Both the position numbers and the translations under genes were made by a program. The notes beneath the pieces were generated by a model, which worked only from the letters and a program-made list of their open reading frames with translations, was not told the DNA's origin and searched no databases. Source: Smithellaceae bacterium (GTDB lineage: Bacteria > Desulfobacterota > Syntrophia > Syntrophales > Smithellaceae). Taken from it: a DNA stretch of 64,000 nucleotides. The stretch is taken from assembly GCA_030690945.1 (NCBI GenBank), contig JAUYFM010000068.1:1-64000 (forward strand). The letters are read 5' to 3'. Within the stretch, counting starts at the first letter, position 1, and every line of letters starts with the position of its first letter. Below, piece after piece: positions 5,450-57,908 of this stretch.

Positions 5450-5532
5450 AGATATGTCCTCCTGAGAGCCGTGCGCCAAAATTCGCATTTACGAAAGGCA
5501 TTGTCAACCGTTTTTCACGAGACAGGTCAATA

Positions 5533-5592
5533 GGCTGAAGGCTGACCCCCTTGCTCACCTAAAGGTGACTCGAGGGGGCGCGAGGCTGAAGG
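5533..5592 (+). repeat. Nested palindrome, copy A (inverted partner at 5705-5755)
   Basis: The order is CCCCC, TTGC, TCACC, TAAA, GGTGA, CTCGA, GGGGG, CGCGA, so a TCACC/GGTGA hairpin sits inside a CCCCC/GGGGG pair with unequal spacers. The direct repeat GGCTGA flanks the unit at 5540-5545 and 5584-5589. A closely similar unit lies inverted about 115 bases further on. The 360-base gap between metF and the amidase (divergent) contains only these two copies and simple GGCTGAAGG-type repetition; no gene is seen. Confidence 0.75.
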
Positions 5593-5704
5593 TTATAAGA
5601 TACAGATGATAGTTTATTTTTCCGACGGTTTATCTTGAACTCTATGTTTAGCAAACCACAAACCCTGCTTCATACTAACAGCCTTCGGTCCTCAGCCTTT
5701 AGCC

Positions 5705-5755
5705 TTCAGTCTCGCGCCCCCTCGCGTGACCTTTAGGTTAGCAAGGGGGTCAGTC
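5705..5755 (-). repeat. Nested palindrome, copy B
   Basis: Read on the minus strand the order is CCCCC, TTGC, TAACC, TAAA, GGTCA, CGCGA, GGGGG, CGCGA, the same layout as copy A. On the plus strand it is flanked by the direct repeat TCAGTC at 5706-5711 and 5750-5755. Compared with copy A the inner arms differ (TCACC/GGTGA against TAACC/GGTCA) while the outer arms and loop are kept. Confidence 0.75.
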
Positions 5756-5809
5756 TTCAACCTTCAACCTTTTCTTGCAGTTGCTGTGGAAATTTGTTAC
5801 TTTCATGCC

Positions 5810-21216: not shown

Positions 21217-21222
21217 GCAATT

Positions 21223-21766
21223 CCTTTCAGGTCACTCGTTTCGAAGGCGATGGGGCTAGCTGTAGGGCGCGGTCCTCGAACGCGCCGCTTTTCGAATTGT
21301 TCAGGAACATCTTTTCGGACTGTTCGGGGATAACCTAATGATACCAAGTTGCCATCAAATGGTAACTGTAGTACGGGTCTTTAGACCCGTTGAACAAACG
21401 AACCTAATAACCTGAAGGTCACGCGAGGTTCGGACTACATTGGTTCGTTATCCTATGAATGCAACTTGGTATGACCTGATGACCTGAAGGTCACGCGAGG
21501 TCACGCGTCAGTCCCTACAATATCGTAATTCATTTTCATGTCATAACCTTTCAGGTCACTCATTTCGAAGCGAAGCGAGAAATCTTGTTTTTAATTCAAG
21601 GTATTAAGATTCCTCACATACGTTCGGAATGACAACTGTTATAATTGTGACACAGTCTCCAGTGGGCGGGGATACCCTAATACCCTAAAGGGTACTCGAG
21701 GTTACACGTTGAGGGGAAGGGGATCATTATATTCACCCTCCCTCAATCCCTCCCCTCGAGGGAGGG
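21223..21766. repeat. Cluster of nested palindromes and REP-like elements
   Basis: This gene-free stretch between two convergent genes holds several units. GTAG followed by a hairpin occurs at 21262-21286 (GGCGCG/CGCGCC) and 21368-21390 (ACGGGT/ACCCGT). Nested palindromes occur at 21399-21432 (CGAACC, TAA, TAACC, TGAA, GGTCA, CGCGA, GGTTCG), at 21472-21507 (TGACC twice, GGTCA twice) and at 21673-21708 (TACCC twice, GGGTA, GGTTA). A 24-base direct repeat lies at 21223-21246 and 21547-21570. A CCCTCCC/GGGAGGG hairpin with CTCGA loop closes it at 21748-21766. The rest, to 21854, shows nothing recognisable. Confidence 0.75.
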
Positions 21767-30349: not shown

Positions 30350-30418
30350 TTATATCCTCCAAATGAATTCTGTTTTTTTAAATATTATCTTATGCTGCCC
30401 AGAATGCCGACTTTGCAA

Positions 30419-30446
30419 GTAGGGAACGGTCGCGACCGTTCCCTAC
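30419..30446. repeat. REP-like palindrome starting GTAG
   Basis: A perfect 28-base palindrome has arms GTAGGGAACGGTCG and its complement, without a loop. It lies 3 bases beyond the trkH stop, between trkH and trkA. A near-identical copy is at 35260-35287, and a split copy at 43687-43807. Confidence 0.85.
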
Positions 30447-30449
30447 GGA

Positions 30450-35259: not shown

Positions 35260-35287
35260 GTAGGGAACGATCGCGACCGTTCCCTAC
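35260..35287. repeat. REP-like palindrome starting GTAG, second copy
   Basis: This has the same 28 bases as the copy at 30419-30446 except for one change in the left arm (GAACGA for GAACGG). It lies upstream of ileS. The 454-base gap 35201-35654 holds this copy, a tandem repeat and an inverted repeat; no gene is seen. Confidence 0.85.
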
Positions 35288-43686: not shown

Positions 43687-43807
43687 GTAGGGAACGGTCT
43701 TGCCACCCGCAGGGGTGGTCGCGATAACCTAACCACCTGATGACCTGATGACCTGAAGGTCACACGAGGTCACACGAGGTGGCCCGAGGTCACAAGCCGT
43801 TCTCTAC
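43687..43807. repeat. Four-level nested palindrome inside a split REP-like element
   Basis: The outer parts GTAGGGAACGG and CCGTTCTCTAC are the two halves of the palindrome seen intact at 30419 and 35260. Inside lies a CACCC/GGGTG hairpin with GCAG loop (43704-43717). Then come left arms TAACC, CCACC, TGACC, TGACC (each followed by TAA or TGA), loop TGAA, and right arms GGTCA, GGTCA, GGTGG, GGTCA separated by CACGA, CACGA, CCCGA. The third arm pair, CCACC/GGTGG, differs from the others on both sides and still pairs perfectly. Confidence 0.85.
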
Positions 43808-53589: not shown

Positions 53590-54924
53590 ATGAGTAAAAA
53601 AATTGATACATCTTTGCCAGCAAACAGCAGCAACGCGGAACCGCAGGGCAAGCCGGATTCTGCGGCTTTCCAGTCCAGGTACTTTGCCCGCGACCTGCAG
53701 GCCGGAATCATTACCGGCGTGATGGCCGTCGCTCTGTCCATAGGCATTGCCATCATGTCCGAATATCCCATCAGGGTGGGTCTGGCGACGGTCGCCTTTG
53801 CCAGTTTTATCGCCTGGATCACCGCCTGGTTCCGGCCAGGAAATTATGTTGGCAGCCCCGGAATTGCGGCTGGGCTGGCGCCTTTGCTGGCCATGGGTGT
53901 GTCATCTTTCGGTCTGCAAAATATGGCGTTCATTGTTTTCATCACCGCCTGCATGCAGGCGGTGATATGGAAGTTCAATCTGCAAAAATATATTCTGAAG
54001 GCAGTGCCCAGCTACCTCGTCGAGGGTTTGCTCGCGGGCATCGGCCTGCAGATCGCAATGAAGTTTTTGGGGTTCGCCTATGAGATACCCGCCGGGCAGG
54101 TGACAGAAGGCGTGTTCCTTAATGCCGCGCGCATTCAAATGATTCTGATTTCGCTTGCCGGCTTTGTCCTGTTCGTGGTTTTGTTTTCAAAATTTCAGGC
54201 AAAACAGCCGGCGGTTCCCTATTTCGTCATTATCATTGCGGGTGTGATTGTGGCACAGTTTGTTTCCGTACCAATGCTGCAAATTAAGAGCGTGGATATT
54301 CGTCTCGCCCTGCCGCTTCCGAATTTCGATGGCGTGCTGATCTGGCTGTACGCGATCGGTTTTGCAGTGGTGCTGGCTGTCGTTGACGTGGTTGAGCAGG
54401 TGATGAGCAACGCCGCCATTGAGAAAATCGATCCGCTAGAGCGCAAGTGCAACAGCAACAACAGTCTGCTGGTCATCTGGATAGCCAATATGGGCGCCAG
54501 TTTTTTCGGAGGCATGAAGAATCTGGACGGTTTGGCCAAGAGCACGACTAACAGGCTTGCCGGTGCCCATACAAAATTTTCTGTTCTGATCATCGGTATA
54601 GTCGTCACTTTCTTCGTCTTTTTTTCGCAGTATCTGGAATATCTGCCGAAGTTCGCTCTGGCGGCCATTATGATTTTTACCGGCTGGAAAATGATTCTGG
54701 GGCTCTGGCGTGTCGTCGATCAAGGACCTTACGAGCTGATGCTCGCCTTGCTGTGCGGTGTTCTGGTCTATGCAATCGGCATCTTCGAGGGACTCTTGAT
54801 CGCGCTGGCCGTGCATGGCATCGTCCATTATCTGGTGTTCAGCCAGGCAGACCATCTGTCAACGAAGGATATTGTCAGAAAATATTTTGACAAGTTTAAA
54901 CATGATACTACGGGTGTGGACTAG
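53590..54924 (+). CDS. SulP-family anion permease, paralogue 1
   Basis: This 444-residue membrane protein has about 10-12 hydrophobic segments and lacks the STAS domain that ends most SulP proteins. The N-terminal YFARDLQAGIITGVMAVALSIGIAI and the IANMGASFFGGMKNLDGLAKSTTNRLAG region match the SulP transmembrane core. SulP proteins move sulfate, bicarbonate or carboxylates. It is the most diverged of three tandem copies (for example SEYPIRVGL for SDYPIKVGL). AAGGA precedes the start. Confidence 0.8.
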   Translation: MSKKIDTSLPANSSNAEPQGKPDSAAFQSRYFARDLQAGIITGVMAVALSIGIAIMSEYPIRVGLATVAFASFIAWITAWFRPGNYVGSPGIAAGLAPLLAMGVSSFGLQNMAFIVFITACMQAVIWKFNLQKYILKAVPSYLVEGLLAGIGLQIAMKFLGFAYEIPAGQVTEGVFLNAARIQMILISLAGFVLFVVLFSKFQAKQPAVPYFVIIIAGVIVAQFVSVPMLQIKSVDIRLALPLPNFDGVLIWLYAIGFAVVLAVVDVVEQVMSNAAIEKIDPLERKCNSNNSLLVIWIANMGASFFGGMKNLDGLAKSTTNRLAGAHTKFSVLIIGIVVTFFVFFSQYLEYLPKFALAAIMIFTGWKMILGLWRVVDQGPYELMLALLCGVLVYAIGIFEGLLIALAVHGIVHYLVFSQADHLSTKDIVRKYFDKFKHDTTGVD

Positions 54925-55011
54925 CGTTTGCTGATGAACCGGCTTTTTTCGTCGCAATGCCAATCGTTCAGACTTTAGCATAGACAATACAAAGGTAAGA
55001 CTAAGGAAGAA

Positions 55012-56346
55012 ATGATGAGTAAAAATATGGATACATCTTTGCCGGAAAGCGGCAGTAACGCTAAACCGCAAGGCAAGCCGGGATCCGCGGCGTTCCAGTC
55101 CCAGTACTTTGCCCGCGACCTGCAGGCCGGAATCATTACCGGCGTGATGGCTGTTGCTCTGACCATCGGCATTGCCATCATGTCCGATTATCCCATCAAG
55201 GTTGGTCTGGCAACGGTTGCTTTCGCCTCTTTTATCGGCTGGATCAATGCCTGGTTCCGTCCAGGCAACTACATCGGCAGTCCCGGGATTGCGGCGGGGC
55301 TGGCGCCTGTGCTGGCCATGGGGGTTGCCTCCTTCGGCATGCAGAACATGGCGTTCATCGTTTTCCTCACGGCCTGTATGCAGGCTCTGATATGGAAGTT
55401 CAACTGGCAGAAATACATTCTGCAGGCGGTGCCTCATTATCTCGTTGAGGGCTTGCTGGCGGGTGTCGGCTTGAAGATTGCGCTCAAGTTTTTGGGGTTT
55501 GCCTATGAGATTCCCGCCGAGCAGGTGGTGGAAGGCTTGTTCTTCAACGCGGCGCGTATTCAAATGATTCTGATTTCGGCTGCCGGTTTTGCCTTGTTCT
55601 TGTTTTTATTTTCCAAATTCCAGGCAAAGCAGCCGGCGGTTCCCTATTTTGTAATCATCATTGTGGGCGTGATCGTGTCGCAGTTTGTTTCTGTGCCGAT
55701 GCTGCAAATTGAAAGCGTGGATATCAAACTTGCGCTGCCACTGCCGAATTTTGACGGCCCGCTAACCTGGCTGCACGCGATCGGTTTCGCGGCAATGTTG
55801 GCTCTTATTGACGTGATCGAGCAGGTGATGAGCAATGCAGCCATTGAAAAAATTGATCCGCTGCAGCGCAAGTGCAACAGCAACAACAGCCTGATGGCCA
55901 TCTGGATAGCCAATATGGGCGCCAGTTTTTTCGGGGGCATGACGAATCTGGACGGGCTGGCCAAGAGCACGACCAACCGGCTGGCCGGTGCCTACACCAA
56001 ATTTTCCGTTTTTATTCTCGGCATCGTTGTCACGTTCTTCGTTTTATTTTCAGAGTATCTGGTATATTTGCCGAAGTTTGCCCTGGCGGCGATCATGATA
56101 TTTACCGGCTGGAAAATGATCATAGGACTCAGGCATGTTGTCCATCTGGGACCATATCCGCTGATGCTTGCCTTGCTGTGCGGTGTTCTGGTCTATAAGG
56201 TCGGCATCTTCGAGGGACTGCTGATTGCGATGGCTGTGCATGGCATCGTCCATTATCTGGTGTTTCGCAAGGTGGACCAAATGTCAAACAAGGATATCGT
56301 CAAAGGATACATTGAGAAGTTTAAGGGTGAGGGCGGCGTGGACTAG
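55012..56346 (+). CDS. SulP-family anion permease, paralogue 2
   Basis: This 444-residue tandem paralogue shares the whole transmembrane core with its neighbours, and the leader also repeats (CAGACTTTAG, then AAGACTAAGGAAG before the start). It lacks a STAS domain. Differences from copy 3 cluster in a few loops, such as LTWLHAIGFAAMLALIDV for LIWLYAIGFAAMLAVIDV. ATG at 55015 is an equal alternative start. A terminator follows at 56472-56512. Confidence 0.8.
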   Translation: MMSKNMDTSLPESGSNAKPQGKPGSAAFQSQYFARDLQAGIITGVMAVALTIGIAIMSDYPIKVGLATVAFASFIGWINAWFRPGNYIGSPGIAAGLAPVLAMGVASFGMQNMAFIVFLTACMQALIWKFNWQKYILQAVPHYLVEGLLAGVGLKIALKFLGFAYEIPAEQVVEGLFFNAARIQMILISAAGFALFLFLFSKFQAKQPAVPYFVIIIVGVIVSQFVSVPMLQIESVDIKLALPLPNFDGPLTWLHAIGFAAMLALIDVIEQVMSNAAIEKIDPLQRKCNSNNSLMAIWIANMGASFFGGMTNLDGLAKSTTNRLAGAYTKFSVFILGIVVTFFVLFSEYLVYLPKFALAAIMIFTGWKMIIGLRHVVHLGPYPLMLALLCGVLVYKVGIFEGLLIAMAVHGIVHYLVFRKVDQMSNKDIVKGYIEKFKGEGGVD

Positions 56347-56389
56347 TGTGTTGCTGGTGAAAAATTCCCCCCGCTGCGGGCGGAGAATT

Positions 56390-56410
56390 CAAGCGCCGGC
56401 GTTGGCGCTT
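56390..56410 (+). repeat. Short hairpin after SulP paralogue 2
   Basis: Arms AAGCGCC and GGCGCTT enclose a 6-base loop in the 227-base gap before the third copy. It lacks a T run. Confidence 0.35.
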
Positions 56411-56471
56411 GAGGAAGCTTTTGCCGGTATCGGCACGGCGGAAGCAATAACGTAAGGTTTAGGAGGATATG

Positions 56472-56512
56472 AAAACAGCCGGTCCTATTTGATGGGATGA
56501 GCCGGCTGTTTT
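56472..56512 (+). terminator. Terminator between SulP paralogues 2 and 3
   Basis: Arms AAAACAGCCGG and CCGGCTGTTTT pair perfectly around a 19-base loop and are followed by TCG. A related hairpin follows the third copy. After the first copy only the right half remains (AACCGGCTTTTTTCG, from about 54957). Confidence 0.75.
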
Positions 56513-56573
56513 TCGTCGCAACGTCAATCGTTCAGACCTTAGATAGACAAAACACAGGTAAGACAAGGAAGAA

Positions 56574-57908
56574 ATGATGAGAAAAAATATGGATACATCT
56601 TTGCCGGCCAACGGCAGTAACGCTAAACCGCAGGGCAAGTCGGCATCTGCGGCGTTCCAGTCCCAATACTTTGTCCGCGACCTGCAGGCCGGAGTCATTA
56701 CCGGTGTGATGGCTGTGGCTCTGACCATCGGCATTGCTATCATGTCCGACTACCCCATCAAGGTTGGTCTGGCAACGGTTGCTTTCGCCTCTTTTATCGG
56801 CTGGATCAATGCCTGGTTCCGGCCAGGGAATTACATTGGGTGTCCCGGAGTTGCGGCGGGGTTGGCGCCTGTGCTGGCCATGGGGGTTGCCACATTCGGC
56901 ATGCAAAATATGGCATTCATCGTTTTCCTTACCGCCTGCATGCAAGCGGTGATCTGGAAGTTCAACTGGCAGAAATACATTCTGAAGGCGGTGCCCAACT
57001 ATCTTGTCGAGGGCTTGCTGGCTGGTGTCGGCCTGAAGATCGCGCTGAAGTTTTTGGGGTTTGCCTATGAGCTTCCCGCCGAGCAGGTGGCGGAAGGCGT
57101 CTTCCTGAATGTGGCGCGCATTCAAATGATTCTGATTTCGCTTGCCAGCTTTGCCCTGTTCTTGTTTTTGTTTTCAAAATTTCAGGCAAAACAGCCGGCG
57201 GTTCCCTATTTCGTAATTATCATTGCAGGTGTGATCGTGGCACAGTTTGTTTCTGTGCCGATGCTGCAAATTGAAAGCGTGGATATCAAACTTGCCCTGC
57301 CGCTGCCGAATTTTTCCGGTCCGCTGATCTGGCTGTATGCGATCGGTTTTGCCGCGATGCTGGCCGTCATTGACGTAATCGAGCAGGTGATGAGCAACGC
57401 CGCCATTGAGAAAATCGATCCGCTACAACGAAAATGCAACAGTAACAACAGCCTGATGGCCATCTGGATAGCCAATATGGGCGCCAGTTTTTTCGGGGGC
57501 ATGACGAATCTGGACGGTTTGGCCAAGAGCACGACCAACCAGTTGGCTGGTGCCTATACCAAGTTTTCCGTTCTGATCATCGGGATTGTCATAACTTTCT
57601 TCGTCTTTTTTTCACAGTATCTGGAATATTTGCCAAAGTTCGCCCTGGCGGCGATCATGATTTTTACCGGCTGGAAAATGATTATAGGGCTTAGGCATGT
57701 CATCCATCATGGACCTTACGCGCTGATGCTGGCCTTGCTGTGCGGCGTTCTGGTCTATAAGGTCGGGATCTTCGAGGGACTCTTGATTGCGCTGGCCGTG
57801 CATGGCATTGTCCATTTTCTGGTATTTCGCAAGGTGGATCAGCTGTCAACCAAGAGCATTGTCAGAAAATACCTTGAAAAATTTTCGTCTGATACCAGTG
57901 TTGATTAG
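56574..57908 (+). CDS. SulP-family anion permease, paralogue 3
   Basis: This 444-residue third tandem copy is nearly identical to paralogue 2 over most of its length and ends in SSDTSVD where copy 2 ends EGGVD. It again lacks a STAS domain. A change of GSPGIAAG to GCPGVAAG lies in the loop where the other copies are constant. AAGGAAG precedes the start. Its terminator at 57998-58038 closes the block. Confidence 0.8.
   Translation: MMRKNMDTSLPANGSNAKPQGKSASAAFQSQYFVRDLQAGVITGVMAVALTIGIAIMSDYPIKVGLATVAFASFIGWINAWFRPGNYIGCPGVAAGLAPVLAMGVATFGMQNMAFIVFLTACMQAVIWKFNWQKYILKAVPNYLVEGLLAGVGLKIALKFLGFAYELPAEQVAEGVFLNVARIQMILISLASFALFLFLFSKFQAKQPAVPYFVIIIAGVIVAQFVSVPMLQIESVDIKLALPLPNFSGPLIWLYAIGFAAMLAVIDVIEQVMSNAAIEKIDPLQRKCNSNNSLMAIWIANMGASFFGGMTNLDGLAKSTTNQLAGAYTKFSVLIIGIVITFFVFFSQYLEYLPKFALAAIMIFTGWKMIIGLRHVIHHGPYALMLALLCGVLVYKVGIFEGLLIALAVHGIVHFLVFRKVDQLSTKSIVRKYLEKFSSDTSVD

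Follow-up and report, generated by a model that had tools for sequence, protein, structure and literature searches.

Nested 18-nt hairpin units in Smithellaceae genomes: the palindrome stack between valS and nadC and its probable origin by repeated insertion

Layout of the stack and of its host palindrome

The window, i.e. the whole stretch of 64,000 nt that was analysed, belongs to the 3.15-Mb genome of a Smithellaceae bacterium (G000; the relatives compared are G004, G008 and G015). Between valS and nadC, both recognised by NCBIfam matches above cut-off, it contains a nested palindrome of four levels within the halves of a further palindrome, and the features at and related to this locus are:

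43687..43697, + strand: left outer arm of the GTAG-type host palindrome, GTAGGGAACGG
43703..43718, + strand: first inner hairpin, CCACCCGCAGGGGTGG, also between the host halves
43725..43732, + strand: unit 1 (outermost), left part, TAACCTAA; the sole level present in G004
43733..43740, + strand: unit 2, left part, CCACCTGA
43741..43748, + strand: unit 3, left part, TGACCTGA
43749..43766, + strand: unit 4 (innermost), an uninterrupted 18-mer, TGACCTGAAGGTCACACG
43767..43776, + strand: unit 3, right part, AGGTCACACG; G008 has one extra such 10-mer
43777..43786, + strand: unit 2, right part, AGGTGGCCCG
43787..43796, + strand: unit 1, right part, AGGTCACAAG
43797..43807, + strand: right outer arm of the host palindrome, CCGTTCTCTAC
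43725-43729, 43733-43737, 43741-43745 and 43749-43753, + strand: left arms TAACC, CCACC, TGACC and TGACC, read directly from the sequence
43754-43757, + strand: loop TGAA
43758-43762, 43768-43772, 43778-43782 and 43788-43792, + strand: right arms GGTCA, GGTCA, GGTGG and GGTCA, read directly from the sequence
30419..30446, no strand assigned: empty host palindrome, GTAGGGAACGGTCGCGACCGTTCCCTAC
35260..35287, no strand assigned: empty host palindrome, one base different from GTAGGGAACGGTCGCGACCGTTCCCTAC

Direct reading together with folding against shuffled sequences confirms the arms, the spacers and the TGAA loop of the four-level palindrome described in the initial annotation, as well as the full pairing of the CCACC/GGTGG pair that differs from its neighbours. 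The left-arm spacers are, in order, TAA, TGA and TGA, the right-arm spacers CACGA, CACGA and CCCGA, and the outermost pair TAACC/GGTCA contains one A·C mismatch. The nested structure folds on both strands, and in each of four folding runs its stability was matched by none of 200 dinucleotide shuffles (z = -3.27 and -4.15 for + and - strand RNA, respectively, and -3.26 and -3.27 for DNA); it is a real structure and not due to chance. At gathering score, the only Rfam family found in the 64-kb window was tRNA, and the stack matches no known Rfam RNA. Readings of the spacers as a hammerhead core (CTGATGA) or as a kink-turn were dropped by eye, as the further conserved bases of these motifs are missing in both cases.

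The stack had also been placed within the two halves of a palindrome that is intact at 30419 and 35260. The outer arms indeed match, apart from a single base of the right arm, and this supports the proposed insertion into a palindrome centre. Since a second hairpin (43703-43718) likewise lies between the host halves, the valS-nadC element is Y-shaped, and this first inner hairpin itself corresponds to an empty 18-nt target (CCACCCGCA^GGGGTGG, with ^ marking the insertion point) which is filled at three other loci (L248, L253, L312). The GTAGGGAACGGTCGCGACCGTTCCCTAC palindromes at 30361-30448 and 35260-35287 look like GTAG-type REPs. The stretch 30361-30448 with its GTAGGGAACGGTCGCGACCGTTCCCTAC palindrome is missing in G008, where 4 nt stand in place of 88.

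The 18-nt unit and its distribution

The repeated element is an 18-nt unit, NNNCCTRAAGGNNNCNCG, in which a 5-bp hairpin capped by a TRAA loop is followed by a CNCG tail; its end reads CNCG or CNAG, which corresponds to CGNG or CTNG on the opposite strand. In this genome, the nested pattern (26 bases, at most 3 mismatches) has 58 matches and its reversed control none, and a strict single-unit pattern has 54 matches versus 0 for its control, 49 of these 54 units being covered by parsing in context. Further units in the window are:

5555..5572, + strand: TCACCTAAAGGTGACTCG, inside CCCCCTTGC^AGGGGG within GGCTGAA-type heptamers
5723..5740, - strand: a unit in a GGCTGAA-type heptamer host
21408..21425, + strand: TAACCTGAAGGTCACGCG, inside a GAACC/GGTTC stem
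21472..21507, + strand: two nested units
21681..21698, + strand: TACCCTAAAGGGTACTCG

At 5532-5763, the units in GGCTGAA-type heptamers belong to two elements of opposite orientation, which together make a 64-nt inverted repeat with halves that are 89% complementary and 104 nt apart. The segment 21212-21851 (about 640 nt) comprises three 18-nt unit sites, a TIR-like pair (21341-21366/21447-21472) and direct repeats; its site is uninterrupted in G004 and G008, where the flanks overlap by 4 nt, and mixed in G015, with contig C88 uninterrupted and contig C120 having 189 nt in place of about 21220-21687. Elsewhere in the window, three genes in tandem at 53590-57908 encode 444-aa paralogues of the sulfate permease family (PF00916), with 300-nt stretches that are 83-92% alike.

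A search of related genomes returned many further members, whereas their absence would have refuted the initial annotation. The nested pattern (at most 2 mismatches) was found in 39 of 51 Smithellaceae genomes and, with one hit each, in three of 104 other genomes of the order, the control pattern having 1 hit. With at most 1 mismatch, it was found in five of 395 genomes sampled from the phylum, all five among the eight family members in the sample, and in none of the 387 genomes sampled outside the family. In named genome contigs the nested pattern occurs in at least 109 stretches, and among the 80 of these matches listed, all are named Smithella, Smithellaceae, Syntrophaceae or delta(proteo)bacteria; a scan of viral contigs for exact matches returned none.

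The co-variation of the arms expected by the initial annotation is borne out across the collected family: 25 distinct arm-pair types provide 75 positions, of which 53 form Watson-Crick pairs, compared to a mean of 29.9 and a maximum of 41 in 2000 shuffles. The three variable pairs of 270 deduplicated units provide 810 positions, of which 639 are Watson-Crick pairs, A·C accounts for 155 and G·T for 5, and the last 11 are different combinations. Folding favours the reverse strand in 107 of 123 distinct stacks and disfavours it in 11; if only the 23 stacks with fully paired arms are counted, these figures are 20 and 0. Since A·C on one strand equals G·U on the other, the folded form might be the reverse strand, i.e. 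CGNG followed by the hairpin. This is a hint only, and the A·C excess may be a single inherited feature, as it comes mostly from two arm types (TAA/TCA and TAC/GCA). Most loci were fetched with the two-level pattern, and the frequencies of the TRA/AGG flank are accordingly biased towards that flank.

With respect to the genomic setting, 118 of 126 units in four genomes lie outside open reading frames of at least 120 codons, compared to 27% of positions drawn at random from these loci. Units between tandem genes run along the direction of the genes in 41 cases and against it in 32, and 33 units lie between convergent but only 7 between divergent genes. This setting fits tolerated insertion rather than a regulatory RNA.

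Filled and empty sites

Two kinds of place hold the units, the apices of hairpins and the position CTRA^AGG within heptamer repeats; among the hosts are the GTAG palindrome, ATTCCC palindromes (which we take to be dRS3-like), several G+C-rich hairpins of differing sequence and heptamers. When the units are removed, the flanks of 20 out of 81 distinct, balanced outermost junctions in four genomes (65 undeduplicated unbalanced cases being left out) pair into a stem of at least 6 bp next to the junction, compared to 2.6% of shuffled flanks and 0.8% of random positions, and the other 61 junctions fail this strict test. In a looser test of all 138 distinct junctions, at least 7 paired bases were found in 33 (shuffled flanks 6.2%, random positions 4.3%).

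A within-genome comparison comes from contig C33 (L010) of this genome, where two paralogous copies of a repeat of about 250 nt (266 aligned columns, 89.9% identity) differ by one 18-nt gap and 9 substitutions, the latter all lying more than 80 nt from the gap. The unit TAACCTGAAGGTCACGCG is present at CCTCCGCC^AGCGGAGG in one copy and absent from the other, and its arms TAACC/GGTCA sit at the apex of a CCTCCGC/GCGGAGG hairpin. Insert sizes at other hosts were as follows, the host patterns having been picked after examples had been seen and an open scan of heptamers having returned many unrelated intervals:

CGGGTCTAA^NGACCCG: 0 nt (7; 8 on a re-scan with further loci) or 18 nt (10)
CCACCCGCA^: 0 nt (8) or 18 nt (3)
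CCCCCTRA^: 0, 18 or 36 nt (6, 5 and 2), plus one of 34 nt
CCCCCTTGC^: 0, 18 or 36 nt (1, 8 and 3), plus one each of 52 and 57 nt
TTCGGGGA: 1, 19, 37 or 55 nt, i.e. 0, 18, 36 or 54 nt beyond one host base (3, 1, 3 and 2)
CTCCGCC^: 0 nt (7 rows from 6 places, one of them on both strands) or 18 nt (2); a loose scan, which also caught 6 unrelated intervals
ATTCCC palindromes: two with 36-nt inserts, and no empty one matching that pattern
heptamer tracts: a unit or a 19-nt variant at GGCYGA^AG, some of these places being uninterrupted in relatives

Filled and empty versions of a site thus differ mostly by 18 nt (or 36 or 54 nt), and a target-site duplication, a classical trait of MITEs, was found at none of the filled/empty junctions inspected.

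Orthologous loci were compared for 106 elements of two or more levels in four genomes, and 22 chosen ones were inspected individually. Between valS and nadC, the number of levels is zero in G015, one in G004 and four in G000, while G008 combines four left arms with five right ones, i.e. a separate +10 change on the right side; the difference of 54 nt between G000 and G004 equals three units and lies at the apex. At L014/L274, it is G004 that exceeds G000 by one unit (18 nt at TAA^A), the arms of which do not resemble the host's; this insert is missing in G008, which has the uninterrupted heptamer GGCTGA^AGGCCGAAGG. At another orthologous locus, a 36-nt insert in G015 stands against an uninterrupted heptamer tract in G004. 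The suggestion that the CCACC/GGTGG pair could reflect copying of a target's arms finds no support in these comparisons, in which the arms of an insert are its own and not those of its host: at an orthologous locus, a TCACC/GGTGA host contains a unit with TAACC/GGTTA, and the same holds for the C33 insert described above.

One-sided changes in length by 8, 10 or 16 nt also occur (L210, +8; L305, +16; L281), and the separate +8, +10 and +16 changes imply that not all growth proceeds by whole units. L016, L210 and L305 have more left than right arms, as a one-sided change in 8-mers would give; unbalanced loci are claimed here only if individually inspected, since the parser over-counts imbalance where a TTGC spacer or a heptamer follows the array.

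Divergence among the four species is about 4-7% in the flanking genes, and the grouping obtained depends on which of two regions is used; in the local tree at valS-nadC, G000 groups with G004 (support 79). Because of this recombination between lineages no firm polarity can be assigned at valS-nadC, where the single level of G004 may be due to a precise loss or to a recombinant. In general, precise excision would leave the same pattern of filled and empty sites as insertion.

Proposed mobility of the unit and its alternatives

Taken together, the stack was most probably built up as copies of a very small mobile hairpin of 18 nt, NNNCCTRAAGGNNNCNCG, inserted into one another time after time, a reading to which we assign a probability of roughly 0.8. 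The mobile form would be a folded single strand, probably the reverse complement (CGNG plus hairpin), either as RNA or as lagging-strand DNA. Recognition would be by shape and by the 4-nt tail, not by the stem sequence, and joining into exposed loops might be catalysed by an enzyme supplied in trans. As the unit's own loop, CCTRA^AGG, is both a heptamer-type target and a hairpin apex, each copy recreates its own target in the loop, and this accounts for the nesting. The comparisons show that arms are exchanged in pairs and that the left 8-mers and right 10-mers also change in number separately, as in slippage. For this fuller version, in which a unit recognised by shape and tail is moved single-stranded into hairpin loops by a hitherto unrecognised enzyme and nests in itself, the chances may be about even. 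The element is probably not a working regulatory RNA but selfish or neutral.

The one-sided changes at valS-nadC in G008, at L210 and at L305, which are independent of each other, and unbalanced arrays such as L016 would be expected if slippage and template switching alone were at work, with left 8-mers and right 10-mers expanding, quasi-palindrome correction restoring the pairing and no mobile unit involved. However, 18-nt inserts are also found in hairpins unlike the unit (CCTCCGCC^AGCGGAGG and the CCACCCGCA^ and TTCGGGGA hosts), the inserted arms differ from the host arms on both sides at once, and there are many dispersed copies; this explanation is therefore unlikely, and slippage as the sole cause is already contradicted by the paralogous C33 pair. 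It is very improbable, too, that the stack is a conserved functional RNA or a protein-binding hairpin array, the depth and pairing of which are kept by selection, as the initial annotation had considered for the compensated arm pair. While the co-varying arms, the low folding energy, the better folding of one strand and the preference for convergent over divergent gaps would agree with such a function, the location of nearly all units outside open reading frames, the lack of a clear orientation with respect to tandem genes, the variation in presence and in number of levels between species only about 4-7% apart, the restriction to one family and the absence of any Rfam family other than tRNA from the window do not favour it.

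A more serious candidate, albeit a doubtful one, is that a resident RAYT, an IS200/IS605-like single-strand transposase, moves the unit as a miniature transposon of the REP type; this would name the enzyme of the mobile-unit explanation rather than exclude that explanation. The plan of a tag plus hairpin (on the reverse strand, the 4-nt CGNG tag and then the hairpin) is that of REPs, for which insertions in palindromes have been reported in some species (PMC3733652). RAYT matches (E of 0.001 or better) are found in 39 of 51 family genomes, in 21 of them over the curated cut-off, and genomes with more copies of the unit tend weakly to have more RAYT matches (Spearman 0.35, p = 0.013, without correction for relatedness); in addition, a RAYT gene of G000 and its relative in G008 are both located 1.3-1.7 kb from units. 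At L260 (G008:C8:2400-9800), a RAYT gene has 18-nt units about 1.3-1.4 kb to either side and a reverse transcriptase match nearby. However, the tag is neither GTAG nor CGTC, a RAYT match is absent from 5 of 19 genomes with at least 10 copies (four of these five being 83-93% complete) and present in 13 of 18 genomes with 0-1 copies, and 30 RAYT loci (94,448 bp) contain only 3 units, the nearest about 430 nt from the gene, so that no RAYT gene among them is directly flanked by units. GTAGGG/CCCTAC motifs number 3, 2, 10 and 0 in four of the 30 RAYT loci, with about 1-2 per locus expected by chance; the ten motifs around the RAYT gene of L324 (G066:C52) are above chance and the sole stand-out of the four. 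Searches for three enzyme families, i.e. Y1 transposases (matches in 26 of 34 family genomes), reverse transcriptases (11 of 34) and RAYTs, revealed no gene clearly tracking the copy number of the unit, and genome G007 (99% complete, 26 copies) has no match to any of the three.

Among known elements, the small dispersed repeats (SDRs) of cyanobacteria are the closest kind, and the initial statement that no repeat with this layout has been described was, in view of these repeats, too strong. SDRs, reportedly described by Elhai et al. in 2008 in Nostoc and its relatives, are said to be 21-27 nt long, to form hairpins with compensatory changes, to be nested in their own copies and embedded in tandem heptamers and small repeats, and to be confined to one clade. 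The 18-nt unit resembles SDRs of this description in its length of about 20 nt with exact ends (18 nt being just below their range), its compensated hairpin, its nesting in own copies and in heptamers and its restriction to one clade, and differs from them in belonging to a different phylum and in having targets that include the apices of several unrelated hairpins. For SDR5, a precise insertion into HIP1 has been reported (PMC4390886).

REPs are likewise described as short, mainly extragenic hairpins with an unpaired 4-nt tag at one end, located mainly between tandem and convergent genes (PMC3116915, PMC3733652). The unit shares with REPs and REPINs the short, mainly extragenic hairpin, the 4-nt tag, the location inside palindromes and the preference for tandem and convergent gaps (PMC3116915, PMC3733652), whereas it lacks a GTAG or CGTC tag, has a stem of only 5 bp, occurs as single units and as stacks nested in its own loop, and does not lie directly beside RAYT genes in the 30 loci. 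Small, dispersed and apparently mobile hairpins also include the hairpin elements of sponge mitochondria and the GC clusters of yeast; the sponge elements differ in being mitochondrial and in having longer stems (10-18 bp), and the word 'nested' does not occur in the source (PMC2800124).

Literature searches, which covered open-licence papers, are no basis for calling the 18-nt unit unpublished. The element bears on the question of how sequences of about 20 nt move with precision.

Few DNA units that behave as mobile are as small as the 18-nt hairpin. If the proposed explanation is true, it would rank with the smallest known mobile DNA units and would represent an independent origin of SDR-like mobility outside the cyanobacteria. 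As filled and empty sites are available both in close relatives and within one genome, the direction, the rate, the strand and the enzyme can be tested. The unit also offers a simple rule for the growth of nested palindromes, in which each insert carries its own target in its loop.
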